From a virus, in the IMG/VR virus record IMGVR_UViG_3300044811_000035, positions 1 through 34,872 of that record: 34,872 nucleotides of DNA; one strand, 5' to 3'. This document shows positions 4,886 to 33,847 of this stretch, piece after piece (within the stretch, counting starts at the first letter, position 1; each line of letters starts with the position of its first letter). The notes below the pieces were generated by a model. It made no database searches and was not told where the DNA came from. It saw nothing but the letters and a program-made list of their open reading frames with translations. Made by a program: the position numbers and the translations under genes.

Positions 4886-6255
4886 CGACTCTGCAAACCG
4901 CTGACGGACGGCTTCTGCGATCGAACAGGCCCGGTGGTGCACCTCTCACGATGGGGTTGCCGTCGGCGTTTCCGCCAATGTGGTCGGATGGCACTCGCGA
5001 GGGCGACCACGCGATCCTCAAGTCGTTTACGGGCATCTACCACTCGCAGCCAGCCGTTGCCGGCGTCGTCGACAAGCTCGCGCGCAGGATCGCCAGCCTG
5101 CCGTTTGACGGGTACCGACACCTGGACAACAACGCCCGCGAGATCGTGCGCGGCGACAGCCTCGACTCGCTGCTGCGCAAGCCGATGCCGCGCTGGTCAA
5201 CGCTACATCTCAACCACTTCGTTGCCCAGTCCCTGTTGGTGCAGGGAAACGCGCTGCTGGCAAAGGTTCGCAGCGGCAGCGACCCTGAGGCGCCACCGGA
5301 CATGCTGTGGCCGCTCGACTGGAACCTCGTCAACGCCTACGCACCGATCGGTGGCCGCATCGAATGGTGGAGCACCCACCAATTCGACGGCGAAGAGCGC
5401 TTCATCGCAGTCGACGACACCGTCCACTTCGCGTGGGAATCGCCGCTCGGCGAGATCGGCATCAGCCCGCTACAGAAGCTGCGCGTGACGATCCGCACCG
5501 AGGATGCGGCCCAGCGCTTCCAGACAGCCAGCTTCCGCAACGGTGCGCGCCCCGGCGGCGTCCTGACGCTGCCCGCAGGCGTCGTACCGAACAGGGAGAT
5601 GCTCGACCTCACGCGCACAACGCTCGAGGAGATGCACAAGGGCCCCGACAACGCGTTCCGGGTTGGCCTTGTCGCTAACGGTGCAGAGTGGAAGCAGATG
5701 GGCGGCAGCGCGGTCGACGTTGCCCTGATCGACCAGCGCCACCTGAACTGGGAAGAAGTCGGAATGGTCTACGACATGGGCGGCCCGCTCATGAACGACT
5801 TCCGCCACGCCACCTACAGCAACGTCGCAGAACTTCTCCGGGCCCTCTATCGCGACGTGCTGCCGCCGTGGCTTGGCCTGATGGAAAAGACGTGGCAAGC
5901 CCAGGTCATCGACGCTGAGCCGGCGTGGATGGACCGCTTCGTCGCGTTTGACCTGAGCGACAAGATCAAGGGCGATCCGGTGGAGCTGGCCAACACGCTC
6001 AAGCTCGAGGTCGAGGCCGGGATCATCACTCGCAACGAGGCGCGCCGCATCCTGAACATGGCGCCGGTGAGCGACGAGAACGCCGACAAGCTGACCTACA
6101 ACGCCAACAACCAGGCGCCGATCGACTACCACCGCGCGACCGAAGTCCTTACCGAGAACGCGGCCGGCACCGAAGTCAACCCGCCGGCCGCCCTGCAGCG
6201 CCCAGGAGCGGGCACGGTTCCGACGCCGCCCGTTCCGCCAGCACCCAAGCAGTAG
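4882..6255 (+). CDS. Portal protein (HK97/SPP1-like phage portal family)
   Basis: 457 residues, the usual length for the HK97-type portal family. It forms the dodecameric ring at one capsid vertex through which DNA is packaged and ejected. Typical segments include the N-terminal YHSQPAVAGVVDKLARRIA, then LLRKPMPRWSTLHLNHFVAQ and SLLVQGNALLAKV (about residues 94-130), a central LGEIGISPLQKLRVTI, and the helical stem/wing region with VAELLRALYRDVLPPWLGLM. The C-terminus is Pro/Ala-rich and probably disordered. It begins in an ATGA overlap and sits between terminase and scaffold as in most siphoviruses. Confidence 0.9.
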   Translation: MTTLQTADGRLLRSNRPGGAPLTMGLPSAFPPMWSDGTREGDHAILKSFTGIYHSQPAVAGVVDKLARRIASLPFDGYRHLDNNAREIVRGDSLDSLLRKPMPRWSTLHLNHFVAQSLLVQGNALLAKVRSGSDPEAPPDMLWPLDWNLVNAYAPIGGRIEWWSTHQFDGEERFIAVDDTVHFAWESPLGEIGISPLQKLRVTIRTEDAAQRFQTASFRNGARPGGVLTLPAGVVPNREMLDLTRTTLEEMHKGPDNAFRVGLVANGAEWKQMGGSAVDVALIDQRHLNWEEVGMVYDMGGPLMNDFRHATYSNVAELLRALYRDVLPPWLGLMEKTWQAQVIDAEPAWMDRFVAFDLSDKIKGDPVELANTLKLEVEAGIITRNEARRILNMAPVSDENADKLTYNANNQAPIDYHRATEVLTENAAGTEVNPPAALQRPGAGTVPTPPVPPAPKQ

Positions 6256-6297
6256 CACTCCATCGCCTCTCAGGGCGTCATCTGAGTAGGAGGCAAC

Positions 6298-6918
6298 ATG
6301 TCCGAGGACACTGGCGTCGTCGACGACGCTGTAACGACCGACGAGCAGGACGAGGGCGAGAAGCCTGACCCGGCTACGGATCGCCTGAGAGAGATGGGCA
6401 AACACAAGAAGGCCGCTGAGGAGCGCGCCGCCGACCTCGAGAAGAAGCTCGCGGCCGTCCTGGCTGAGCAGGAAGCCCGCGAAGCTGAGGGGCTCCCAGA
6501 ACTCGAGCGTGAGCGCAAGCGCGCGGAGGTGCTCGAGAAGCGAATCGCTGAGGCCGAGGCACGGGCCCAGGCCAGCGAGCAGCGTGTCCTTCAGACCCAG
6601 CGTGAGCAATGGGTCGCGCAGGCCGCCGCAGCACTGAACTTTGCTAACCCGTCGCGCGCCGCGAAGCTGATCGACGATCTCGACTCGATCGAGGACCCGG
6701 ATCAGGCTGAGCGCGCAGTCAAGCGTCTCGCGAAAAGCGACTCGTATCTCGTCAAGTCCGACGAGGGGCAGCCAAAGATCGGCAGGGTCCTCGAAGGCGG
6801 CAAGGCCGTGCAGCCCGGCGACAAGTCGCGAGGCCGGATCAATGTCGAGGAAGAGGCCGGCATGATCGCCGACCAGCTCAAGCAGTTCACGAACAACTGG
6901 CAGTCCACAGCGGGCTGA
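6298..6918 (+). CDS. Scaffolding protein
   Basis: 206 residues, preceded by AGGAGG and located between portal and major capsid protein. Residues about 30-105 are a heptad-rich, highly charged coiled coil (long runs of Ala, Glu, Lys, Arg) with an acidic disordered N-terminus. The C-terminal region (RINVEEEAGMIADQLKQFTN) is a helix of the kind that binds the capsid shell. Scaffolds guide prohead assembly and then leave or are degraded. No protease motif is seen here, nor in the portal gene or elsewhere in the head block. Confidence 0.8.
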   Translation: MSEDTGVVDDAVTTDEQDEGEKPDPATDRLREMGKHKKAAEERAADLEKKLAAVLAEQEAREAEGLPELERERKRAEVLEKRIAEAEARAQASEQRVLQTQREQWVAQAAAALNFANPSRAAKLIDDLDSIEDPDQAERAVKRLAKSDSYLVKSDEGQPKIGRVLEGGKAVQPGDKSRGRINVEEEAGMIADQLKQFTNNWQSTAG

Positions 6919-6967
6919 CAGCCCGCGTCGCAGTTCAGCCGGGTTTTCGCCTCCGGGGCGTAAAACC
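6910..6967 (+). promoter_or_regulatory. Two hairpins before the major capsid gene
   Basis: A perfect 7-bp stem with a 3-base loop (GCGGGCT / AGCCCGC, 6910-6926) carries the scaffold stop codon in its loop region. A second hairpin follows (GGTTTTCGCC at 6942-6951 against GGCG-T-AAAACC ending at 6967, one bulged T). No T-run follows, so they look less like simple terminators and more like processing or attenuation elements that separate a low-level scaffold message from the abundant capsid message. The capsid gene has its own AGGAGGG site. Function inferred from structure and place only. Confidence 0.45.
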
Positions 6968-7014
6968 GCGTAGCGCCCGGCCCTTCTCTCTAAATCAAGC
7001 ATCAGGAGGGCCTC

Positions 7015-7938
7015 ATGGCCAACGCTATCCCGCTGCTCGAGGGCACTGCTGCCTCGGGTGGCTATCTCGTCCCGGACCAGTACGTTCAGGACGCCTTTCA
7101 GCTCGGCATCGACCGCCAGTCCGCGGTCGCGCAGCTCGTCCGCATCCGCAGGGTTGCCGCCAAGCGCGTCCAGCTCACGGAGTACGTCGGGCGGCCCACG
7201 GCAGGGTTCGTCGCCGAAGGCGCCGACAAGCCCGCGTCGGGCGCGGCGTACAACGTCGTGACGGTCGACATCAAGAAGATCGCGTCGCTGATCATGTACA
7301 CCGAGGAGCTGATCGAGGACGCGCAGAGCGACCCGACCGTTCTCATCAACCAGGACGTGCGCGGCGCGTTCTCTGACCTGATCGACTCGCACGCCCTGGG
7401 CACCAGCCCATCGGGTGCGGTGACGACGCAGTTCAACAACGCGCTGGCGAACACCACCCAGACGGTGGAGTACGACCAGAGCAAGCAGGATGCCCTGCCG
7501 CTGGCGATCTCGTCGGCGATCCAGACGATTCGCTCCAACGGCTACAACGCCAACGGGGCGATCGTCGGGCCCGACGCCGAGCTCGCTCTGCGCAACGCTC
7601 GCGACACGCTGGGCCGCCCGCTGTACGCGGATGGCTTCTCGGGGGCACCGAGCAGCCTGTACGGGCTGAACATGTCGCGCACGACGAATCTCCAGACGAT
7701 CGCGGGTACCGCGGCGGCTGGCCGGGTCGTCGCGATCGTGGGCGACTTCAACCAGGGCCTTCTGGCCGTGCGTGACGACATCCGCGTGAAGTTCAGCGAC
7801 CAGGCGACGGTCAACGTGTCCGGCACCGACCACCGCCTGTGGCAGCAGAACAAGGTCGCGGCGCTCTGGGAGACCCGCGTGGGCTTCGTCGCTCACGACC
7901 TCAATAGGGCCTTTGTGGCTGTCGTGAACGCGTCCTGA
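7015..7938 (+). CDS. Major capsid protein (HK97 gp5-like)
   Basis: 307 residues with the hallmarks of HK97-fold capsid proteins of the phage-capsid family: an N-terminal arm reading ASGGYLVPDQYVQDAFQL, an E-loop/spine segment with YVGRPTAGFVAEGADKP (about residues 58-74), KKIASLIMYTEELIEDA as the spine helix region, and the A-domain with GAIVGPDAELALR and GLNMSRT, followed by VVAIVGDFNQGLLAVRDDIRVKFSDQA. It builds the icosahedral shell. Good ribosome binding site (AGGAGGG) six bases upstream. Only a short arm precedes the shell domain and no long delta domain is present, fitting a separate scaffold gene. The stop overlaps the next start as TGATG. Confidence 0.93.
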   Translation: MANAIPLLEGTAASGGYLVPDQYVQDAFQLGIDRQSAVAQLVRIRRVAAKRVQLTEYVGRPTAGFVAEGADKPASGAAYNVVTVDIKKIASLIMYTEELIEDAQSDPTVLINQDVRGAFSDLIDSHALGTSPSGAVTTQFNNALANTTQTVEYDQSKQDALPLAISSAIQTIRSNGYNANGAIVGPDAELALRNARDTLGRPLYADGFSGAPSSLYGLNMSRTTNLQTIAGTAAAGRVVAIVGDFNQGLLAVRDDIRVKFSDQATVNVSGTDHRLWQQNKVAALWETRVGFVAHDLNRAFVAVVNAS

Positions 7939-8390
7939 TGAGCCTCATTCAGAAGGTGCGGGCACGGGTCGCGGCGGTCACGATCGCTGCGACGACCGGC
8001 TCGACGGTGGGTGAGGCCGACCAGGCCGGCCGGGTGGTTGGCGTGACGTACACGCCGGACGCGTCGGTTACCGGAGCGGCCTCGCCGAATAGCCGGACGC
8101 TGACGCTCGTCAACAAGGGCCAGGACGGCTCAGGGCCGACGAACATCGCCACGCTGGCCCTCGTCGGGTCGGTGAACCTGACCGCATTCGACGAGGCGGC
8201 GATCACGCTGAACGGCACGGCCGCGAACCTCAAGGTCGCGGCGTCAGACATCCTGGAATGGGTGTCGACCGCCGTTACCTCTGGCGGCGGTCTCGTCGAT
8301 CCAGGTGGCCTTGTCGAGGTCGAGATCGGCTCGGGGTCCTACACGGATGTCGCGTCGACTGTCGGAACTATCGCCCAGACCGAAGGCTAG
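7938..8390 (+). CDS. Probable capsid decoration or minor head protein (150 aa)
   Basis: Starts in a TGATG overlap with the major capsid gene, so it is likely made in step with it. The 150-residue product is rich in Thr, Val, Ala and Gly with alternating hydrophobic pattern (SRTLTLVNKGQDGSG, IATLALVGSVNLTAFDEAAITL), suggesting an all-beta fold. Position directly after the capsid gene and this composition are usual for decoration (cement) proteins that sit on the outside of the shell. No specific family is recognised, so the assignment is by context. Confidence 0.6.
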   Translation: MSLIQKVRARVAAVTIAATTGSTVGEADQAGRVVGVTYTPDASVTGAASPNSRTLTLVNKGQDGSGPTNIATLALVGSVNLTAFDEAAITLNGTAANLKVAASDILEWVSTAVTSGGGLVDPGGLVEVEIGSGSYTDVASTVGTIAQTEG

Positions 8391-8398
8391 GAGAAAGT

Positions 8399-8581
8399 AT
8401 GCCCAGGCAGACGCAGCCGGTGACCTCGCAAGGCGACACGAGCAGTGACGCCTCTGGGGCGCCGCCGATCAACAAGGCCGACGACCACGCTGGCACGTTC
8501 GAGTACCGGGACCTCCCGGACTCGGAGAAGCCGGCGCCGGAGACGGTCGCGCAGGAGCAGGTTCTCCCCAGCGACAAGTAG
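8399..8581 (+). CDS. Small disordered hypothetical protein (60 aa)
   Basis: ATG preceded by TAGGAGAAAGT, a good ribosome binding site with seven-base spacing. The 60-residue product is Gln/Ser/Asp/Pro-rich without predicted secondary structure (QPVTSQGDTSSDASGAPP), with a short central HAGTFEYRDLPDSEKP. It may be a small head accessory protein. The frame runs further upstream to 8258, but that part is a shadow of the preceding gene. Function unknown. Confidence 0.55.
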   Translation: MPRQTQPVTSQGDTSSDASGAPPINKADDHAGTFEYRDLPDSEKPAPETVAQEQVLPSDK

Positions 8582-8587
8582 CAGCTC

Positions 8588-8623
8588 GGGCCGCCGCCGT
8601 TCTCTCTCTTGCGGCGGCGGCCC
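8588..8623 (+). terminator. Strong GC hairpin between head genes
   Basis: GGGCCGCCGCCG (8588-8599) pairs perfectly with CGGCGGCGGCCC (8612-8623), a 12-bp stem with a pyrimidine-rich 12-base loop, starting seven bases after a stop codon. A short pyrimidine-rich stretch (ACCTTCTTCTACC) follows rather than a clean T-run. It probably attenuates transcription or stabilises the upstream capsid message, lowering expression of the genes after it. Confidence 0.55.
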
Positions 8624-8653
8624 ACCTTCTTCTACCTGGCCGGGAGGCTACGC

Positions 8654-8869
8654 ATGGCAAACCACCTGGCCGGTATGGCCCCGACAAGCATCACGCTCGA
8701 AGGCACCATCCTCCGGGCTGACGGCACCACCGAAGACCTCGGCGTCATCGCCTACACCCACCGCAATCCTGTTCGCAGGCTGCTGGGTCAACAGAACGTC
8801 CGGGGCGGCAGCGTGCTGCGAACCATCCTCGGTCGCGCCCCGAAGATCACCGATCACAAGGAGGGCTGA
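8654..8869 (+). CDS. Small hypothetical protein (71 aa)
   Basis: ATG 8654 has a GGGAGG ribosome binding site; the frame upstream to 8609 lies in the hairpin region and is not used. The product has a short beta-rich start (ITLEGTILRADGTTEDLGVIAYTHR) and a basic C-terminus. No family recognised. The stop overlaps the next start as TGATG. It lies in the head gene block, so a minor head or head-tail role is possible. Confidence 0.55.
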   Translation: MANHLAGMAPTSITLEGTILRADGTTEDLGVIAYTHRNPVRRLLGQQNVRGGSVLRTILGRAPKITDHKEG

Positions 8870-9183
8870 TGCCCCCGTTTCGCATCGTTGTACGCCACCC
8901 CGATAGTTCGCATCACGATCACGCGTGGGCGGCGGTCGGCGGTGTCTTTGACACCCCGGAAGACATCGACGAGGTTCTCGAGCAGGCGGACGGCGTTGAG
9001 CCGTCGGTGCCTGGGTCGCTGGCGCCCGAGCAGCGTGTTCGTGTGACGGTCCCTCAGCGCCTCGCCGAGTTCGTCGGCCAGGGGTATGAGGTTCGGTCGC
9101 AGGAACTCGTCGTCAAGACGGAAGGCACTGATGACGCCGGGCAGACCATTCCTGTTGAGCACAAGTGGAAGGACGTGAAGTAA
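8869..9183 (+). CDS. Hypothetical protein of the head gene block (104 aa)
   Basis: TGATG overlap at the start and TAATG overlap at the end show coupling with both neighbours. The 104-residue protein is acidic, with a mixed alpha/beta pattern: FRIVVRHPDSSHHDHAW at the start, a Glu/Asp-rich helix TPEDIDEVLEQADG, then YEVRSQELVVKTEG strands. No recognised family and no membrane segment. The His cluster near residues 15-18 could bind metal, but no complete site is visible. Confidence 0.6.
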   Translation: MPPFRIVVRHPDSSHHDHAWAAVGGVFDTPEDIDEVLEQADGVEPSVPGSLAPEQRVRVTVPQRLAEFVGQGYEVRSQELVVKTEGTDDAGQTIPVEHKWKDVK

Positions 9184-9641
9184 TGGCTGCTGGAGTCATC
9201 ACCGCGCCGGCGCCGAGGGCGACGATCCGCGACATCATCGACTTCGTGTTTGGCACGGCGACGGTCGTTACGTCGTCGGGCAAGGCGATCAGCGCGAAGC
9301 GCAATGTCGGGTCGACGCCGACGCAGACCGAGCCGAAGTTCATCGGTATCGGCGTGGGTGCGACGGGCGCTGCCAGGACGGCTGTCGCGGCGGACACAGC
9401 GTTGACGACGGAGGTCGAGACGCGGGCGACGGGTACGGCGTCGACGGTCACGACGACGGTGACGAACGACACGTATCAGACGGTCGGGACGATTACGGCG
9501 ACGGCGGGCCGGTCGGTGGATGAGGCGGGCACGTTTGACGCTTCGACGACCGGCAACATGGACGTGTCTGCGACGTTCGCGGTGGTCACGCTTGCGAGCG
9601 GCGATTCGCTGCAGTTGACCGTGAAGAAGCAGTACACGTAG
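9183..9641 (+). CDS. Minor structural protein, beta-rich (152 aa)
   Basis: Starts at the ATG of a TAATG overlap. The product is Thr/Ala/Val/Gly-rich with repeated short strands. The segments FIGIGVGATGAARTAVAADTAL, TTEVETRATGT, TYQTVGTITATAGRSVDEAG and VTLASGDSLQLTVKKQYT follow the order seen in small phage fibre/collar-type structural proteins (xxGxGTGAxxxxxxDTALxTE...). Known proteins of this form are predicted virion surface components. Whether it sits on head or tail here is unknown; the position before the tail genes favours head or neck. Confidence 0.55.
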   Translation: MAAGVITAPAPRATIRDIIDFVFGTATVVTSSGKAISAKRNVGSTPTQTEPKFIGIGVGATGAARTAVAADTALTTEVETRATGTASTVTTTVTNDTYQTVGTITATAGRSVDEAGTFDASTTGNMDVSATFAVVTLASGDSLQLTVKKQYT

Positions 9642-9644
9642 GCG

Positions 9645-9986
9645 GTGGCTGTGCGGGTGGTTGCCGGGATGGTGCTGGCAACCATGGCGGGTTCGACGTT
9701 CGCATCGGTGCCGGGCCCCGCGGTCCTGGTTCGTGGTGGCGGTGTGGCTGGTGGTGACGCCCTGGTGATTCCTGGGGGCGACATTCTGAATGTCCGCAAC
9801 ATCCAGGGCGGCACGATCGCCGATCCGAACCTTGACCTCGGTGCCGGTTCGGCGTCTCACCGGGGGACGCTCGCCCTGAATTACGACGTGGGGCGGTGTG
9901 TCGTGATCTACGACGGCCACAAGCACCGGCTCGCTGAGTTCTGCCCGCACCAGATCGTCTTCTACGTCAAGCCACGGGTGCGCTGA
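9645..9986 (+). CDS. Hypothetical protein (113 aa)
   Basis: GTG start three bases after the preceding stop, without its own clear ribosome binding site, so translation is probably coupled. The N-terminal 25 residues are hydrophobic (VRVVAGMVLATMAGSTFASV), like a weak signal or membrane segment, followed by Gly-rich and then beta-type sequence ending CVVIYDGHKHRLAEFCPHQIVF. The two late Cys and several His residues stand out. The stop is followed immediately by the ATG of the large repeat protein (TGATGG). Function unknown. Confidence 0.5.
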   Translation: MAVRVVAGMVLATMAGSTFASVPGPAVLVRGGGVAGGDALVIPGGDILNVRNIQGGTIADPNLDLGAGSASHRGTLALNYDVGRCVVIYDGHKHRLAEFCPHQIVFYVKPRVR

Positions 9987-12730
9987 TGGCGATCGCGTTC
10001 GTCAAGAACGGCGGGATCGGAGGGAACAAGTCCGGCGCGATTAGCCAGGCGATCACCGTCCCCACTGGTGGACACGCGGCAGGGAACCTTCTGGTCGTCA
10101 ACGTCGGTGTCAGCGGCTCCGCGTCCTCGACAGCAACGGTCACCGACTCCCGTGGGAACACGTACACCCAGATCGACGCTGGGGCAGGGGACGTGGTGCG
10201 AAGCCAAATCTGGGCTGCGGTACTGACGACAGCTCTCCTTGCGGGGGACACCATCACGTGCGCGGTTACGTCAGGAACGCCGACCTGGGCAATCTCGTCG
10301 ATCGAGTTCTCCGGCGCATCAATCACTGAGGACGTTGCCTCCTCAAACAACATCACAGGCACGGGTGGAACCACTCCCTCGGCGTCTATCACGCCAGTCA
10401 CCACCGGGTCGCTGGTGATCGGCTCGATCTTCATCATCAACGGGCCGACCGCCGACACGTTCACGCAGGACACCGACACGACGAACGGCTCGTGGGGAAC
10501 GATTCCGGCCGGCGGAACGACCGGCGGAAGCGCGACGAGCAACGTCACGCTTCGTGGTGGTTACAAGATCATTACCGCCTCCGGCGCGCAGACGTACAAC
10601 CCAACACTCGGGACGGGCCGCTCCTACCAGATCGCTATAGCGGCGCTGAAGCCCACGGCGACCGGCACGACGTTCACGCAGACGCTGTCGGCGACCTCAA
10701 CAGTCTCGGCGTCGATCGCGCAATCGCCCAGCAAGATCATCGCGGCAGCGGCCGCATCGGCCCCGGCGAAGATCACTGCTGTCGCAAGGACCTGGACGGT
10801 CGCGGCGGGCAGCACACCGACGATCGTCCGACTCACCGCCCGCACCTGGGCCGCCAGTGCGGCATCGACAGCCTCGCTGCTGGCGAGCAGGCTCTTTCAG
10901 AAGGTGCTGAGCGCCACGACCGGGTCTACGGCGGCGACCGTTCGCACCGCCAGCCTCGCCAGGAACGCCACTGCTGCGGCGAGCGCCACGATCCGCAGGG
11001 CGGTCACGCGTACGTGGACGACAACGACATCGACCGCAGCCACCGTGGCGCGCACCGGATCGCGCACACTGACCGCCGCCACGTCGACAACGGCATCGGC
11101 GGCGCGATTCGCTCAGCGAGTGCTCACCACCGCGGCGGCAAGCTCAGCGACCGCGGCCCGCGCAACGACACGCGCACTGGCTGCCAGCGCCGCCGCGAGC
11201 GCCACTGTCAGACGTGCCGTCACCCGCACGCTGCCCGCGCCGGCATCGGCAGTGGCCACCGTTCTGCGCGCAACGGCACGCACGATCTCCTCGAGCACGT
11301 CGGCGGGCGCGGCACTGGCGGCCAGCCGGGCCCTGCTGCGGACGCTCGCGTCAACGACAAGCAGCTCGGTCACCCTCTCCAGAACGTCATCGCGCACGCT
11401 GTCGACCACCGCGAGCTCGACGGGCACCGTCGGCCGCACTAGCTCGCTGCGCCGCACGATCGCCGCAACCGCGCCCGCGGCCGCAACTCTCGTGCGTTCT
11501 GTCTCGCGGTCGATCAACGGCGCCGGGGCGCAGCTGGCCAGCACTGTGAGATCGACCACCAAGCAGGTGGCGTCCATCGCGCCGGCGACAGCGGTACTCG
11601 CGATCGGCCGGGCGCTTCTGCGGACACTCACTGCGGCGACAAGCAGCACGGGAACGCTCTCCCGAGCGTCGTCGCGAACGCTGGCGAGCACAGCAGCCTC
11701 GACGGGCACCATCAGCCGCGCGAGCTCCGTGCGCCGCACGATCGTTGCCTTCGCCCCAGCCGCTGGATCACTCGCCCGCGCGATCACCAAGCAGATGTCC
11801 TCCACCGCGCCGGCGACGGCGGTACTGACAACCGTCCGGGCGATCCTGCGGACGATCACCACCACCGCCCCCGCCGCCGCCCTGCTCTCTCGAGCAACGT
11901 CTCGAGCGCTGACCGGGACGGCAGCGAGCGCGGCAACGCTCACTCGGCAGACGTTTCTACTACGCGCCCTGACCGCCGTTTCAGCCGTCTCGTCAACCAT
12001 CGTGCGCGCCATCTCGCGGAACGTGACCGCCGGCACCGGCTCGACCGGCACTGTTTTCCGTCTCACCGCCAGGACCATCCAGGCGACCGCACCCGCCAAT
12101 GCCGTGCTCGCGATGATTCGCGTCACGCTGCGCACCCTGACCGCGGGCGCCTCGTCGGCTGCCACGGTAAGCAGGCTCACGTTCAAGCAGATCGTGGCCA
12201 GCGGCGCAACGATCGCGAGCGTTCGCATCGCCGTCGGTCGAACGGTCACGGCAACCATCGCGACTGGCGCGACGATCGGTCGAACGGTCGCTCACGCCGC
12301 CACAGCGGTCGTTGCCGCCGCCGCCGCCGTCAGACGAACGATCGCGACGACCAGGACCGCGAGCACAACCGCAGCTGCCGCGATTGGTCGCGCTGTTGCC
12401 CGCACACTCTCAACCGCGACAGCAGCAGTCGCGAGCGTCACACAGCTCCGAAGCAGCCCCGTCCTGTACCTCACGGCACAAATCGGCACAGTCGCGACAG
12501 TGGCCCGCAACACCGCCCGCCAGCTCACGACGGGCAGCATGGCCGCGGCGAGCATCACACGAGCGATCAGCGCCACCAAGGCCGCGGCTAGCCCGATCGT
12601 TGGCTTTATCACCGAACTACTCGGACGTCTTTCATCTTCGCCGTCGACCGCCGGACATCTCGTGCGGTCCGTCGTCGGCCGGGTCCTCCCGAGTTTGTCT
12701 GGGCGCATCCGCGGCTCCGGCCGCCGCTAA
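9986..12730 (+). CDS. Giant Ala/Thr/Ser/Arg repeat protein with N-terminal beta domain (914 aa)
   Basis: Residues 1 to about 222 are a beta-rich domain (ITVPTGGHAAGNLLVVNV, TVTDSRGNTYTQIDAG, VLTTALLAGDTITCAV, WAISSIEFSG) like carbohydrate-binding or jelly-roll domains of phage surface proteins. From about 224 to 869 the chain is roughly 34 units of 18-20 residues. The core is a small-residue run (Thr, Ala, Ser), then T-V/L-x-R, two to four residues, and R-T-L/I/W. There is no Asp or Glu from 165 to 876 and only one His, so the region is extremely basic. A short C-terminal segment (FITELLGRL... then Arg-rich) ends it. A regular beta-solenoid or coiled helix stack with Arg ladders is possible. 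It lies between head and tail blocks, so a head fibre or an internal DNA-binding protein are both conceivable. The role is unknown. Confidence 0.75.
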   Translation: MAIAFVKNGGIGGNKSGAISQAITVPTGGHAAGNLLVVNVGVSGSASSTATVTDSRGNTYTQIDAGAGDVVRSQIWAAVLTTALLAGDTITCAVTSGTPTWAISSIEFSGASITEDVASSNNITGTGGTTPSASITPVTTGSLVIGSIFIINGPTADTFTQDTDTTNGSWGTIPAGGTTGGSATSNVTLRGGYKIITASGAQTYNPTLGTGRSYQIAIAALKPTATGTTFTQTLSATSTVSASIAQSPSKIIAAAAASAPAKITAVARTWTVAAGSTPTIVRLTARTWAASAASTASLLASRLFQKVLSATTGSTAATVRTASLARNATAAASATIRRAVTRTWTTTTSTAATVARTGSRTLTAATSTTASAARFAQRVLTTAAASSATAARATTRALAASAAASATVRRAVTRTLPAPASAVATVLRATARTISSSTSAGAALAASRALLRTLASTTSSSVTLSRTSSRTLSTTASSTGTVGRTSSLRRTIAATAPAAATLVRSVSRSINGAGAQLASTVRSTTKQVASIAPATAVLAIGRALLRTLTAATSSTGTLSRASSRTLASTAASTGTISRASSVRRTIVAFAPAAGSLARAITKQMSSTAPATAVLTTVRAILRTITTTAPAAALLSRATSRALTGTAASAATLTRQTFLLRALTAVSAVSSTIVRAISRNVTAGTGSTGTVFRLTARTIQATAPANAVLAMIRVTLRTLTAGASSAATVSRLTFKQIVASGATIASVRIAVGRTVTATIATGATIGRTVAHAATAVVAAAAAVRRTIATTRTASTTAAAAIGRAVARTLSTATAAVASVTQLRSSPVLYLTAQIGTVATVARNTARQLTTGSMAAASITRAISATKAAASPIVGFITELLGRLSSSPSTAGHLVRSVVGRVLPSLSGRIRGSGRR
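10658..12592 (+). repeat. Array of about 34 degenerate 54-60 bp protein-coding repeats
   Basis: This is the repeat-coding part of the 914-residue protein. Typical units read TAATSSTGTLSRASSRTL, AATAPAAATLVRSVSRSI and TAGTGSTGTVFRLTARTI: 18 residues with conserved Arg at positions about 12 and 16. Some units have one or two extra residues before the final Arg-Thr-Leu. A higher-order duplication is visible: the blocks beginning at 11330 and 11612 are 282 bases (94 residues) apart and share the same unit order. Repeats are conserved in protein more than in DNA. Confidence 0.8.
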
Positions 12731-12744
12731 CAGGAGGCAGCACC

Positions 12745-13629
12745 GTGGACTACAACGTCAGCCTCGAAGACTTCACGCCCGCGCCAAGGTACCCGCCGGT
12801 AGTCACCCCGTGGACGACCGTCCAGATCGAAGAGTCGACCTCGTCAGACGGGCCGTGGACAGTCATCGACACGTTCGCGCTCGACCCTGTCGACACAGAT
12901 CCGGCCAATCCGGCCGTCAGGAGCTTCACGACCGAGAACGCCACACTGCAATCAGGCTGGTACAGGGTCGCGTTCCTCGACGCGGCGGACCGCATCTCCT
13001 ACGCCGACCCCGTCACCAACCCAACCAGCGGCAGCGCCTACTTCACGGTCGCGGAGTTGCGGGCCCGCTACCCAGACCTTGCGGACGACACCGCCTACCC
13101 GGATGTGCTCGTCGAGGAATACCGCGAACTTGCGGAGCAAGCGTTCGAGGATGCGTGCGACCGCGCGTTCGTCCCGAGGGTCGCGACCGACACGGTTACC
13201 GAGGACCGCTCCTACCGGTGGGAACGCGTCACCCGCACCGACTTCTCAACGTTTCACGGCCGCAAACTCAACCAGCACGACATCCGGCGTGTCCTGGCCG
13301 CCACCGACAGCACCGGCATAGCGCTGGACATCACTGCGGCTGAGCTCAACCACGGCTGGGTGTACGGCCTGCCTTCCGGCGGGACCATCACGATCACCTA
13401 CGAGTACGGCCTCGACACCCCGCCGCTCAGGGTCAAGCACGCCGTCATGGCACTGGCCCGCGAGTGGATGCTCAGCGGCCCGGTGACTGACCGGCAGACC
13501 GGCATCCCCGTGGAGGGTGGTGGCGTGATCAGCCTCGCACTCCCGGGCGGCTGGACGGGCACGTTCGGGCTGTCGGAGGTTGACGAGTGTGTCCGCAGGT
13601 ATGGCGTCAGCCAGGTCTTTGTCGGATGA
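12745..13629 (+). CDS. Head-tail adaptor (gp6-like) with N-terminal fibronectin-III-like domain
   Basis: GTG start behind CAGGAGGC. Residues about 1-97 look like an FN3/Ig-type beta sandwich (VTPWTTVQIEESTSSDGPWTV, then SGWYRVAFLDAADRISYADPV). Residues about 98-294 match the head-tail connector family that docks on the portal: FTVAELRARYPDLADDT, EEYRELAEQAFEDACDRAF, ITITYEYGLDTPPLRVKHAVMAL and a C-terminal FGLSEVDECVRRYG. It seals the portal and receives the tail. The FN3-like fusion is uncommon for this short protein. It ends in ATGA with the next gene. Confidence 0.75.
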   Translation: MDYNVSLEDFTPAPRYPPVVTPWTTVQIEESTSSDGPWTVIDTFALDPVDTDPANPAVRSFTTENATLQSGWYRVAFLDAADRISYADPVTNPTSGSAYFTVAELRARYPDLADDTAYPDVLVEEYRELAEQAFEDACDRAFVPRVATDTVTEDRSYRWERVTRTDFSTFHGRKLNQHDIRRVLAATDSTGIALDITAAELNHGWVYGLPSGGTITITYEYGLDTPPLRVKHAVMALAREWMLSGPVTDRQTGIPVEGGGVISLALPGGWTGTFGLSEVDECVRRYGVSQVFVG

Positions 13630-16023: not shown

Positions 16024-18615
16024 ATGGCAGGGAAGCGCCCCCTCCTGAAAATCGGGAGCGATGTCGCTGAGGCAATTCGCGGCATCGACCAGGTCAAGGA
16101 CAAGGCCGAGACGCTCGGCCGGTTGCGCGAGGAGGCGAAGGTCTCGATCGCCGCCGACGCCGCGCTCGCGAAGTTGGACGTGCTGAAGGCCCGCCTTGAG
16201 CGGTATGGGGCGCAGGAGCAGACGGCGCGGGTGAAGATCGCGACGGGCCGGGCGGTTGAGGAGATCGACCGGATCGAGGCGAAGCTCGACAAGCTCGGCA
16301 AGAAGGACGTGACGGTCAGCGTCCGCATCCGCGAAGCTGCGCTTAGTCGTCTGAGTGGCGCGGGGAGCCGTGTCGGCGGGTCCGGCCTCACCGGGTTCGC
16401 TGGGACCGCGATCGGTGGCGCCACCAGCGTCATCGGTGGCATAGCTGGTGCTGCAGGGCAGGGCGCGGGCGCCCTCGCAGGACTCCTCCCCGTTGTCGGT
16501 GAGGGCGGAGCGGCCATCGCGAGCCTCGGGGTATCAGCCGCTGTCGCTGCCCCGCTGGTAGCGGCGCTCGGGTTCGTCCTCGTCGCACTGACCGCCGCAG
16601 CCATCGCGGTCGTCGCATCGCTCGCCGCCGCTGCTGCCGCTGTCGTCGGGCTCGGTGTGGCGTTCGGCGCCGCGCTGATCCCGATCGCGGCGTTGGCAAT
16701 TCCGGCGATCGCGACGATCACGAAGCTGTTCGGTGCGCTGAAGACGAACGCGCAGGGCCAGAAGGCCGCTGCGGAGGGCGTCAAGACGGCGCAGCAGGGC
16801 GTCGCGCAGGCCACGCAGGCGGTCACGAACGCGCAGCAGAACCTCGCCTCGCAGGCGGTCCCGGCGCTTCAGGCGATGCAGGACGCGGCGGAGCGCGTCA
16901 AGGACGCCATCCTCGGTGTCAAGGACGCACAGCTCGGGGTGCAGGACGCGAGCCTGGCGTTCCGGCAGGCCAAGTTCGCCCTTGCGCAGTTTCGGGCTGA
17001 GGCGGGCCTGACGAGCACCACGTTCGACAACGTCTTCAAGAAGTTCACCGATGTCAGCTTCCGCCCGACCGCCTCCGGGATCAAGGACGCCATCGGTGCC
17101 GCCGGTGGAAGCCTCGATACCGGGCAGGAGCTCCAGCTCGAGCAACTGATCCTGGCCGTCAAGCACGCCCGCCTGGGGCAGCAGCAGGCAACCGACAAGG
17201 TCCACGACAGCACGGTCGAGTTGTCGCGGGCGCAGCAGGCCAACAACACCTACTTGCAGCAGGGCATCCGCGCCTACCCCGGCTATCAGTCGGCGGTGCA
17301 GGGCGTCACGAGCGCCGAGCAGGCCCGCACCAGGGCGCTGGACGCGCTCGTCAAGGCGCAGGACGCCCAGCACAAGGGCACCCTGAAGCTGACGGCCGCA
17401 GACCAAGCTAGGTTGCCTGCGCTTCAGGCGATCGTCTCGACGTTCACGAAGGCGTTCAACCCGGCTGTGAACGCGCTGATCGGCGGGATCTTCAAGGGCG
17501 CCCAGGCGTTCGCGTCGGTGTTCACCGACCCGAAGCTCAGCAACGCGCTAAGCAATCTCGGCGGGGCGCTCGGGGACGTGTTCGTCAAGATCGGTGAGGA
17601 GTTTCAGAAGCCGGCGTGGCGTGAGGCGTTCGTGTTCTTCTCGGCGAGCGCCGCCCGGCTGGCCCGCATCCTCGGCGGCGACGCGTTCGTGTCGTTCCTG
17701 AACATCATCAGGAAGCTCGCGACGGCGTTCATGCCGATGCTGCTGACCGTCGCCCGCGACCTTGCCGGATGGCTGCGGCACATCGCGGACGCTTCACCGC
17801 ACGAGTACGCCAGGGTCGCCCGTTCGTTGTGGCAGTCGTTCGTCGACTGGTTCGGCGTTGCGAAGAGCCTCGTGCGGTTGCTGGGCGCGTTCTTCCCCGA
17901 CGCGAAGCGCACCGGTGACGGCATCGCTCGAGCCCTGAGCCGCATCGTCGACCGGTGGACGGCTTGGCTGAACGCCCACCCGGGTGCCATCAAGGCATTC
18001 TTCTCGACCGTCCTGACCTCGGCGAAGGCGCTCAAGACGGTCCTTGACGCGATCGTCTCGGCGCTGAAGTACATCGCCAAGGTCAAGAACCAGGTGATCG
18101 GCAGCGCCATCTCGGGCAAGGTCGATCCGGGCAAGTTCATCAACCAGATTCAGCCGGTCCACATCCCGGTCCCGAAGACGGTCGGTGGCCCGCAGCTCGC
18201 GGCAGCGATCTCGGATCTGCGCGACAAGCCGCACGGCCTATCGCACGACCGGGCCCGCGCCACGCTCAAGGCCATCTTCGAGCAGATCTACGGCCACGTC
18301 CGTGGCGCTGCGTTGTTCGCGGCCGGCCACTACTCGACCGGTGGACTCGTCCCCGGTGCCGGTGGTGGCGACACGGTGCCGGCCTGGTTGCAGCCGGGCG
18401 AGTTCGTGATGCGCAAGGCGGTTGTGCAGGCGATCGGGCTGCCCGCCCTGTCGCGCCTGAACGCCGCCCCCGCAATGGCCGGTGCTGGTGGGCACGGCGG
18501 CTCGTTGCATCAGGAGAACCACTTCCACATCACGACCCCCGACGGCGGCTCGCCCGACGGCCGCTACCTCGGTCAGCAGATCATTCGTGACCTCGGGAAG
18601 CTCGGGCTCGCGTGA
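16024..18615 (+). CDS. Tape measure protein
   Basis: 863 residues, the second longest gene, following the chaperones. The N-terminal third is charged coiled coil, followed by a long hydrophobic Ala/Gly/Val-rich region (about residues 120-240) with several membrane-like segments, then a second coiled-coil region (VKDAILGVKDAQLGVQDASLAF). The C-terminus carries the frequent tape-measure signature STGGLVPGAGGGDTVPAWL, then PGEFVMRKAVVQAIG. It sets tail length; at about 1.5 Angstrom per residue a tail of roughly 130 nm is expected. GTGA overlap with the next gene. Confidence 0.93.
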   Translation: MAGKRPLLKIGSDVAEAIRGIDQVKDKAETLGRLREEAKVSIAADAALAKLDVLKARLERYGAQEQTARVKIATGRAVEEIDRIEAKLDKLGKKDVTVSVRIREAALSRLSGAGSRVGGSGLTGFAGTAIGGATSVIGGIAGAAGQGAGALAGLLPVVGEGGAAIASLGVSAAVAAPLVAALGFVLVALTAAAIAVVASLAAAAAAVVGLGVAFGAALIPIAALAIPAIATITKLFGALKTNAQGQKAAAEGVKTAQQGVAQATQAVTNAQQNLASQAVPALQAMQDAAERVKDAILGVKDAQLGVQDASLAFRQAKFALAQFRAEAGLTSTTFDNVFKKFTDVSFRPTASGIKDAIGAAGGSLDTGQELQLEQLILAVKHARLGQQQATDKVHDSTVELSRAQQANNTYLQQGIRAYPGYQSAVQGVTSAEQARTRALDALVKAQDAQHKGTLKLTAADQARLPALQAIVSTFTKAFNPAVNALIGGIFKGAQAFASVFTDPKLSNALSNLGGALGDVFVKIGEEFQKPAWREAFVFFSASAARLARILGGDAFVSFLNIIRKLATAFMPMLLTVARDLAGWLRHIADASPHEYARVARSLWQSFVDWFGVAKSLVRLLGAFFPDAKRTGDGIARALSRIVDRWTAWLNAHPGAIKAFFSTVLTSAKALKTVLDAIVSALKYIAKVKNQVIGSAISGKVDPGKFINQIQPVHIPVPKTVGGPQLAAAISDLRDKPHGLSHDRARATLKAIFEQIYGHVRGAALFAAGHYSTGGLVPGAGGGDTVPAWLQPGEFVMRKAVVQAIGLPALSRLNAAPAMAGAGGHGGSLHQENHFHITTPDGGSPDGRYLGQQIIRDLGKLGLA

Positions 18616-32559: not shown

Positions 32560-32834
32560 GATTCGACGAGTACCCACTCTTCGAGGACAGGCTGGCAGCC
32601 GAGTCGACAAAGTCGCTCGTCCTCGACGCCATGTTCTACGTCAAGAGCGGCGGCATCGACCGCGACACCATCAACCGCTACTTCGTGGAGTCCCTGCCGC
32701 TCCTGCGCAGCCTGAGGGTCCAGTTCATCTTCGCGATCTCGCCGAAACAGAACCGCCAGCCGGCCTACGACCCTGAGACCGTCGCACGGGAACTCGCGAG
32801 ACGCTCCCATGCCAAGCACGGAGCGAAGTCATGA
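32556..32834 (+). CDS. Hypothetical protein before integrase (92 aa)
   Basis: ATGA overlaps at both ends. Residues 1-70 are mixed helix/strand (YPLFEDRLAAESTKSLVLDA, INRYFVESLPLLRSLRVQFI) and the C-terminus is basic. No motif recognised. Because it is directly coupled to the integrase it might be an accessory factor for recombination, but nothing in the sequence shows this. Confidence 0.58.
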   Translation: MRFDEYPLFEDRLAAESTKSLVLDAMFYVKSGGIDRDTINRYFVESLPLLRSLRVQFIFAISPKQNRQPAYDPETVARELARRSHAKHGAKS

Positions 32835-33847
32835 GCGCGGTCGAGACGGTCGACGCGTTGACGCTCGCTCAGGCAGCGCGCATCATGCGCGAAGCCGTGC
32901 GCGACAAGACCTACCTGCTGTACCCGCTCGGCCAGGAAGCTGGCGAGTACCTGCGCCACAAGCGCAAGCGACTGACCGACAGCAGCTACACCGACTACGA
33001 AAACAGCCTCGACAAGTTCGCGCGCTACTTCCCCGACCTCCAACTCGCAGACCTCGAACCACCGGTCGGGACTAGCCGCCTCGAGGAATTCCTTGACCAC
33101 CAATACGGCGACCTGTCGCCGCGGACCTACAACAAGAACCTGTCGATCCTGCACGACTTCTGCAAGCAGGCCGTCCTCCGAGGCAAACTCCGCGGCGACC
33201 CGACACTCCCAATCGAGCGGGCCAAAGCCCGCGGCGTCTACCGCACCACCTTCACCGCAGACCAGCGCCGCGCGATCATCGCAACACAGCCCGAGCTCCG
33301 CGACCGCATCTGCCTACGCCTGCTCCTTGACTACGGACTGCGGAAAGGGTCGCTCAAGGCGATCCGGTTTCAGCACTTCGACCATGTGCGCAAGCGGCTG
33401 ACGATCTTCGCGAAGGGCGGCAAGGTCCGCAACCTCCCTGTCCCCGACCCCGCGTTCTGGCACGACCTCGAGCGACTCATCCTCGACACCCAGGCCGAGC
33501 CGCACTGGTACCTGCGACCCACGTCGCGCGGCAACCAGGCCTACCGGCGCCTCGTTCACGACAAGCCGATGGCCGACCATGGCCTGCACAACTGGTGGTA
33601 CGCCTGCCTGACCCGCGCTGGCGTCGTCGCGCAAGGGACCACGAGCGGCGAGCACATGCACAAGGCCCGCCACACCGCCGGCCAGCGCCTCCTCGATCAC
33701 ACCGGCAACCTCAAGGCCGTCCAGAAGCTACTGGGGCATTCGTCGATCACGACGACCGCTGACGTGTACGTCGATTGGGATGACGAGCAGCTCGCGGAGA
33801 GCCTTGCATCAGCTATGGCGCATGAGCGCCGGGAGAACCCCTCGTGA
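32831..33847 (+). CDS. int: Tyrosine integrase
   Basis: 338 residues, ATGA overlap. An N-terminal SAM-like core-binding domain (about 40-130, YLRHKRKRLTDSSYTDYENS, YNKNLSILHDFCKQAVLRG) is followed by the catalytic domain with Arg171 (LLDYGLRKGSL), Lys198 (FAKGGKVR), the HxxR box (His277, Arg280: HMHKARHTAG), His303 (LLGHSSITTT) and nucleophile Tyr313 (ADVYVDW). Box I reads LRKGSL rather than the common ARxSEL, so it is a divergent branch. It recombines attP with attB. Placed at the end of the replication operon rather than beside the repressor. A tRNA/tmRNA 3'-end match lies 46 bases after its stop. Confidence 0.9.
   Translation: MSAVETVDALTLAQAARIMREAVRDKTYLLYPLGQEAGEYLRHKRKRLTDSSYTDYENSLDKFARYFPDLQLADLEPPVGTSRLEEFLDHQYGDLSPRTYNKNLSILHDFCKQAVLRGKLRGDPTLPIERAKARGVYRTTFTADQRRAIIATQPELRDRICLRLLLDYGLRKGSLKAIRFQHFDHVRKRLTIFAKGGKVRNLPVPDPAFWHDLERLILDTQAEPHWYLRPTSRGNQAYRRLVHDKPMADHGLHNWWYACLTRAGVVAQGTTSGEHMHKARHTAGQRLLDHTGNLKAVQKLLGHSSITTTADVYVDWDDEQLAESLASAMAHERRENPS

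Follow-up and report, generated by a model that had tools for sequence, protein, structure and literature searches.

What might a phage do with a long protein that carries two Arg residues in every 18–20 and no acidic residue over most of its length? The question is raised by a gene at 9986–12730 (+) of the window, by which we mean the whole 34,872-base stretch of viral DNA analysed here (an IMG/VR record; 66.5% G+C). The window has a siphophage gene order, with a terminase-like gene, portal, capsid, head-tail adaptor, tape measure (16024–18615) and tyrosine integrase (32831–33847). As an earlier reading of the DNA by eye and open-frame list (the sequence-only reading) had noted, the gene sits between head and tail genes: an HK97-type major capsid gene (7015–7938 (+); PF05065 3.5e-26, phrog_10 6e-39) bounds its slot upstream, and a head-tail adaptor gene (12745–13629 (+); phrog_442 E 1e-11; Shine-Dalgarno AGGAGG) bounds it downstream.

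Reading frame and composition

The frame at 9986–12730 (+) is open and encodes 914 residues, a protein that we call P0001. Its start codon overlaps the stop codon of the upstream gene (TGATG), and it is the only frame open over the whole stretch between its two flanking genes. Asp or Glu occurs at positions 54, 64, 69, 88, 107, 115, 116, 157, 162 and 164 and then not until 877, leaving 712 residues (165–876) free of both, with His 770 the sole His among them; the length, the acid-free stretch and the single His claimed in the sequence-only reading are all borne out. The net charge of P0001 is +74. Among 14 other proteins of the window that were checked, the longest runs lacking Asp and Glu span 12–90 residues.

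Chance alone can give long frames in GC-rich DNA. P0001 could on this account be no real protein, being either such a chance frame or the product of a frame error. Off-frames in GC-rich DNA may be both long and acid-free, as exemplified by a 209-residue acid-free off-frame in another viral record (L004), and codon usage in the repeat, positive for its own frame, is not better than for frame +3 and by itself does not set the P0001 frame apart. The coding case consequently rests on the substitution pattern and on homology. Between internal duplicates of the gene, codon position 2 is the most conserved and dN/dS is ~0.36–0.5 (closest pairs: dN 0.20–0.32, dS 0.44–0.67), which indicates that the frame is under protein-level selection, and repeats homologous to those of P0001 exist in other phages (see below). 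This conservation already largely refutes the view that P0001 is not a protein; given also that no other frame is open across the whole stretch between the two genes, we regard that view as extremely improbable. A separate antisense frame of 381 residues was rejected as a shadow of the P0001 repeat with weak codon bias.

Architecture of the repeat

Regular basic repeats of 18 or 20 residues, delimited with a unit profile and consensus, occupy residues 268–769 of P0001 (10787–12292 (+)). Twenty-six regular units span residues 268–751 (starts 268 to 734); 16 are of 18 residues, nine of 20 and one of 16. The unit consensus is [RK]-T-L-T-A-T-A-S-S-T-A-T-L-x-R-A-T-S; 26/26 units have Arg/Lys at position 1, and 21/26 have it at position 15 or the corresponding position. 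Along the array, an Arg pair (i, i+4) recurs every 18–20 residues, in agreement with the regular cationic repeat of two Arg per unit described from the sequence alone. The figure of about 34 units given in the same description is an upper count, because the units past residue 751 are degenerate: the 26 regular units are joined by about one more at residues 752–769 and by several degenerate ones, recognised by eye, at residues 770–861 (12293–12568 (+)). A basic C-terminal tail follows (residues 862–914; 12569–12727 (+)), in which the first acidic residue is 877.

The Arg/Lys autocorrelation of P0001 is 0.46 at lag 18, and Fourier peaks lie at 18.6 and 2.0 residues. Scored against its own unit profile, P0001 reaches 838 bits and 100 shuffles reach at most 149.5 bits; the regularity of the repeat exceeds chance. 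At the DNA level, the tandem repeats of the gene have diverged too far for TRF.

The T/S/V/I content of the repeat argues for beta structure, and an extended beta shaft would be our predicted form; a beta-spiral, or the solenoid with Arg ladders suggested in the sequence-only reading, would be a candidate fold. In the consensus, Arg, Leu and Ala predominate at odd positions and Thr and Ser at even ones, and changes in unit length come in steps of two or four residues. The moments are mixed, with a strand-type signal in side-chain size at 180 degrees (z 3.7) and a helical one in hydropathy at 100 degrees (z 6.1). The AlphaFold model of the repeat (pLDDT 35) is too poor for use, and the repeat profile found no match in the PDB.

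Relatives of the repeat in other phages

Scans of Pfam, PHROG and NCBIfam returned no family covering P0001. A tblastn search of cultured phages gave no match for P0001, for its N-terminal domain or for the L004, L006 and L010 proteins, a search whose low-complexity filter leaves absence unproven. A DNA pattern for the repeat yielded 37 candidate viral stretches, which we rescored with the 18-residue unit profile. Judged against composition-matched shuffles, the true matches are L053 (z 21), L056 (10.7), L068 (10.5), L058 (9.6) and L070 (8.0), and the match of L004 to the window profile is weak (z 2.8). L042 does not rise above its shuffles with the window profile (z 0.6), and an Acinetobacter contig (L072) was set aside as an RILTAT-type simple repeat matching by composition.

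We defined an 18-residue cationic phage repeat family from L053, L058 and L070. A profile built from these three alone finds P0001 at 174.6 bits (E 6.6e-53); of 200 shuffles, it reports not one at E 10. Another profile, which includes the window and leaves out both L056 and L068, finds these two at 2.8e-24 and 2.7e-17, respectively. P0001 has the traits of the family, an i, i+4 Arg/Lys pair every 18–20 residues and a long acid-free run. Acid-free runs extend over 316 residues in L053, 363 in L058, 648 in L068 and 134 in L070; their presence in L053, L058 and L068 indicates that the exclusion of acidic residues belongs to this branch of repeats and is not a quirk of the window. By profile comparison, then, the P0001 repeat recurs in several unrelated phages, and the related Ala/Thr repeat proteins to which the sequence-only reading had referred can be named: those of L053, L056, L058, L068 and L070. 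The same 393-residue repeat protein is found in L040 and L070, viral contigs from two metagenomes (3300034066 and 3300042321).

Looser repeats of 18–20 residues in L004, L009 and L010 match phrog_10356, a virion structural protein of the head and packaging class, at E 1.7e-4 to 4.7e-4; these matches are weak and composition-prone, and P0001 itself, unlike them, has no phrog_10356 match at E 1. The repeats of the looser relatives are near-neutral in L004 and L009 and acidic in L006, indicating that not every protein of this kind requires a strong positive charge.

It is these neutral and acidic relatives that make a passive spacer the main rival to the attachment role favoured below. The repeats would then be a soluble extended stalk that holds an N-terminal adhesin or another subunit off the particle, the Arg residues serving folding or solubility and not a ligand. 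The looser relatives keep a comparable architecture, and in L053 (3804–6041 (-)) a LamG/ConA-like lectin domain (E 1.7e-18) separates two arrays of the 18-residue repeat, which look there like linkers. A mere spacer would not, however, need what the 18-residue branch keeps in four phages, namely the Arg/Lys pair and the lack of Asp and Glu over 316–712 residues, and we consider the spacer unlikely.

The slot between capsid and head-tail adaptor

The capsid-to-adaptor slot is empty in L015, whose capsid protein is 58% identical to that of the window, and in the cultured phages ArV2 and Kimona. As judged from these genomes, the slot is accessory, and the P0001 gene is a head-block gene that is dispensable in relatives. 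Elsewhere the slot that P0001 occupies is taken by lectin-, CBM- and esterase-like genes: L016 has a CBM5/12-like protein (1.2e-4) and a GDSL-like one (2.6e-6) there, both below the Pfam cut-off, and L004 a LamG-like protein (0.0012, below the Pfam cut-off), a looser 20-residue repeat protein and Gp80 (5e-45). These CBM, GDSL and LamG matches, each under the cut-off, nevertheless point the same way. The gene order in L056/L084 is that of the window: a capsid-like gene, a phrog_5417-like gene, an N-terminal domain with repeats and a head-tail adaptor (phrog_783 7e-28). The L053 array likewise lies in a head block, with terminase-like and portal-like genes, a cement protein and a major head protein.

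A net charge of this size, a repeat stretch without acids and a gene in the head block would also suit a protein inside the head that neutralises the packaged DNA by binding it, such binding being among the functions suggested in the sequence-only reading. The lectin domain joined to the arrays in L053, the carbohydrate-binding or carbohydrate-acting proteins (CBM-, GDSL- and LamG-like) that occupy the slot elsewhere, and the absence of P0001 from relatives with a similar capsid protein all speak against such a protein, and internal DNA binding seems to us highly improbable. Other suggestions of that reading, a virion-block gene encoding a head fibre or extension, gain support from the context in several phages. 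The shared accessory slot and the lectin domain within an array, together with the fibre-type partner described below, point to an external appendage.

The partner gene and the N-terminal domain

Upstream of the repeat gene and on the same strand, as elsewhere in the cationic family, lies a gene for a small, putative virion protein of the phrog_5417 / Gp80-like kind (9165–9641 (+)); between the two is an ORF of 113 residues (9645–9986 (+)) with no family match. The 9165–9641 protein shares 47% identity with a neighbour of the array in L053 (E 6e-24), and neighbours in L006, L068 and L070 are further homologues. It scores 15.9 and 20 bits against PF23140, under the curated cut-off of 27 bits. 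The phrog_5417-like and Gp80 families of partners are distant relatives (hhalign P 3.3e-5).

Across 32 records, a phrog_5417-like gene or Gp80 accompanies the repeat protein in 11/11 cases, whether the repeat is cationic, of the looser kind or, as in L006, acidic, and occurs in 3/21 others, which are a convenience sample containing some fragments (Fisher p 3e-6). With the profile-building records removed, the co-occurrence is 6/6 (p 3e-4). The partner genes of L056 and L058 were first found by this search.

Gp80 is the fibre I protein of Ralstonia phage GP4 (PF23140; PDB 8jou_a), and its family (phrog_240, head protein) adjoins the looser repeat proteins in L004, L009, L010 and L042. Its relation to the 9165–9641 protein is distant, and it is the counterpart of this partner, not of P0001.

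The N-terminal domain of P0001, delimited by BLASTP and alignment, comprises residues 1–225 (9986–10660 (+)) and is plausibly beta-rich, probably a beta-sandwich; its AF2 model has low confidence (pLDDT 42). It has a LLVV..TD..GNTYT motif in common with the N-terminal domain of the L056/L084 repeat protein (BLASTP E 0.004 against L084). A search of this domain for lectin or glycan-binding families found none. Another N-terminal domain is ~71% identical between L004 (9689–10333 (+)) and L006 (9995–10642 (+)), different phages from the same metagenome; the repeats behind it differ, being neutral in L004 and of an acidic DSVTVSD type in L006, which suggests module exchange. Comparison of this domain with that of the window supports no relation (hhalign probability 0.5%).

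These data bear on whether P0001 could be a receptor-binding fibre of the neck or collar, with the N-terminal domain contacting a specific host glycan and the repeat serving as its shaft. The P0001 gene adjoins the head-tail adaptor, Gp80 is named a fibre protein, and a collar/fibre assembly of GP4 is described in citing papers. The scores of the window partner under the PF23140 cut-off and the lack of a lectin or glycan-binding match in the N-terminal domain count against this reading, which we judge improbable.

A candidate electrostatic fibre

With moderate confidence, we favour an optional external fibre of the head or collar that would attach the virion to anionic surfaces through the charge of its cationic shaft. 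On this view P0001 would be an accessory virion protein exposed on the particle surface, either at the head or at the neck/collar. Behind its small N-terminal domain would come a long rod or shaft of ~30 basic repeats of 18–20 residues, on which the Arg pairs would confer a net charge of about +74. The neighbouring 9165–9641 protein probably acts together with P0001 and may be its docking part. The shaft could bind polyanions of the cell surface or matrix (teichoic acids, exopolysaccharide, extracellular DNA) as a reversible tether, and such tethering would help with adsorption. Reversible electrostatic attachment seems the most economical function of a shaft whose units each carry two Arg and which lacks acids.

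The head fibres of phages phi29, 7-7-1 and phiCbK are capsid appendages; in 7-7-1 and phiCbK they make the first contact with the host by binding its flagella (PMC12796354). The phi29 head fibre has a supercoiled helix-turn-helix motif, as the title of a paper cited there states, and the fibre proteins of 7-7-1 are not known (PMC12796354). P0001 would resemble these fibres in being a capsid appendage. Alishewanella phage LSH1 carries an optional structural module (gp34–36) in which an adhesin/lyase-like domain lies beside long stretches that AlphaFold cannot model and which includes a fibril protein matching GP4 (PMC13243795); here the likeness to P0001 is one of description, and the LSH1 repeats are not described as cationic (PMC13243795).

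Catalogues cover accessory virion proteins of first contact poorly, since searches filter out low-complexity repeats and structure prediction fails on them. The present repeat is absent from the three family scans, yet it recurs in unrelated phages near lectin- and hydrolase-like genes. A broader proposal, tentative and on the doubtful side, is that P0001 represents a widespread, unrecognised class of polycationic 18-residue repeat fibres, exchanged among phages together with a small collar or head partner, which would let virions hold to anionic walls or matrices by non-specific electrostatic contact before a specific receptor is bound. With a usable profile and a partner gene to hand, what cationic virion fibres do can be tested directly.

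Other features of the head block

No maturation protease is apparent between portal and capsid in the window (6255–7015), where the only gene is a scaffold-like one (6298–6918); the window contrasts in this with ArV2 and Kimona and is resembled by L004. An antisense open frame of 808 residues (5470–7896 (-)) runs over the portal, scaffold and capsid genes; it has no codon bias and is a GC-rich shadow. In L006, a GH39/GH5-like gene (8034–9317 (+)) lies between the partner gene and the gene for the acidic-repeat protein.
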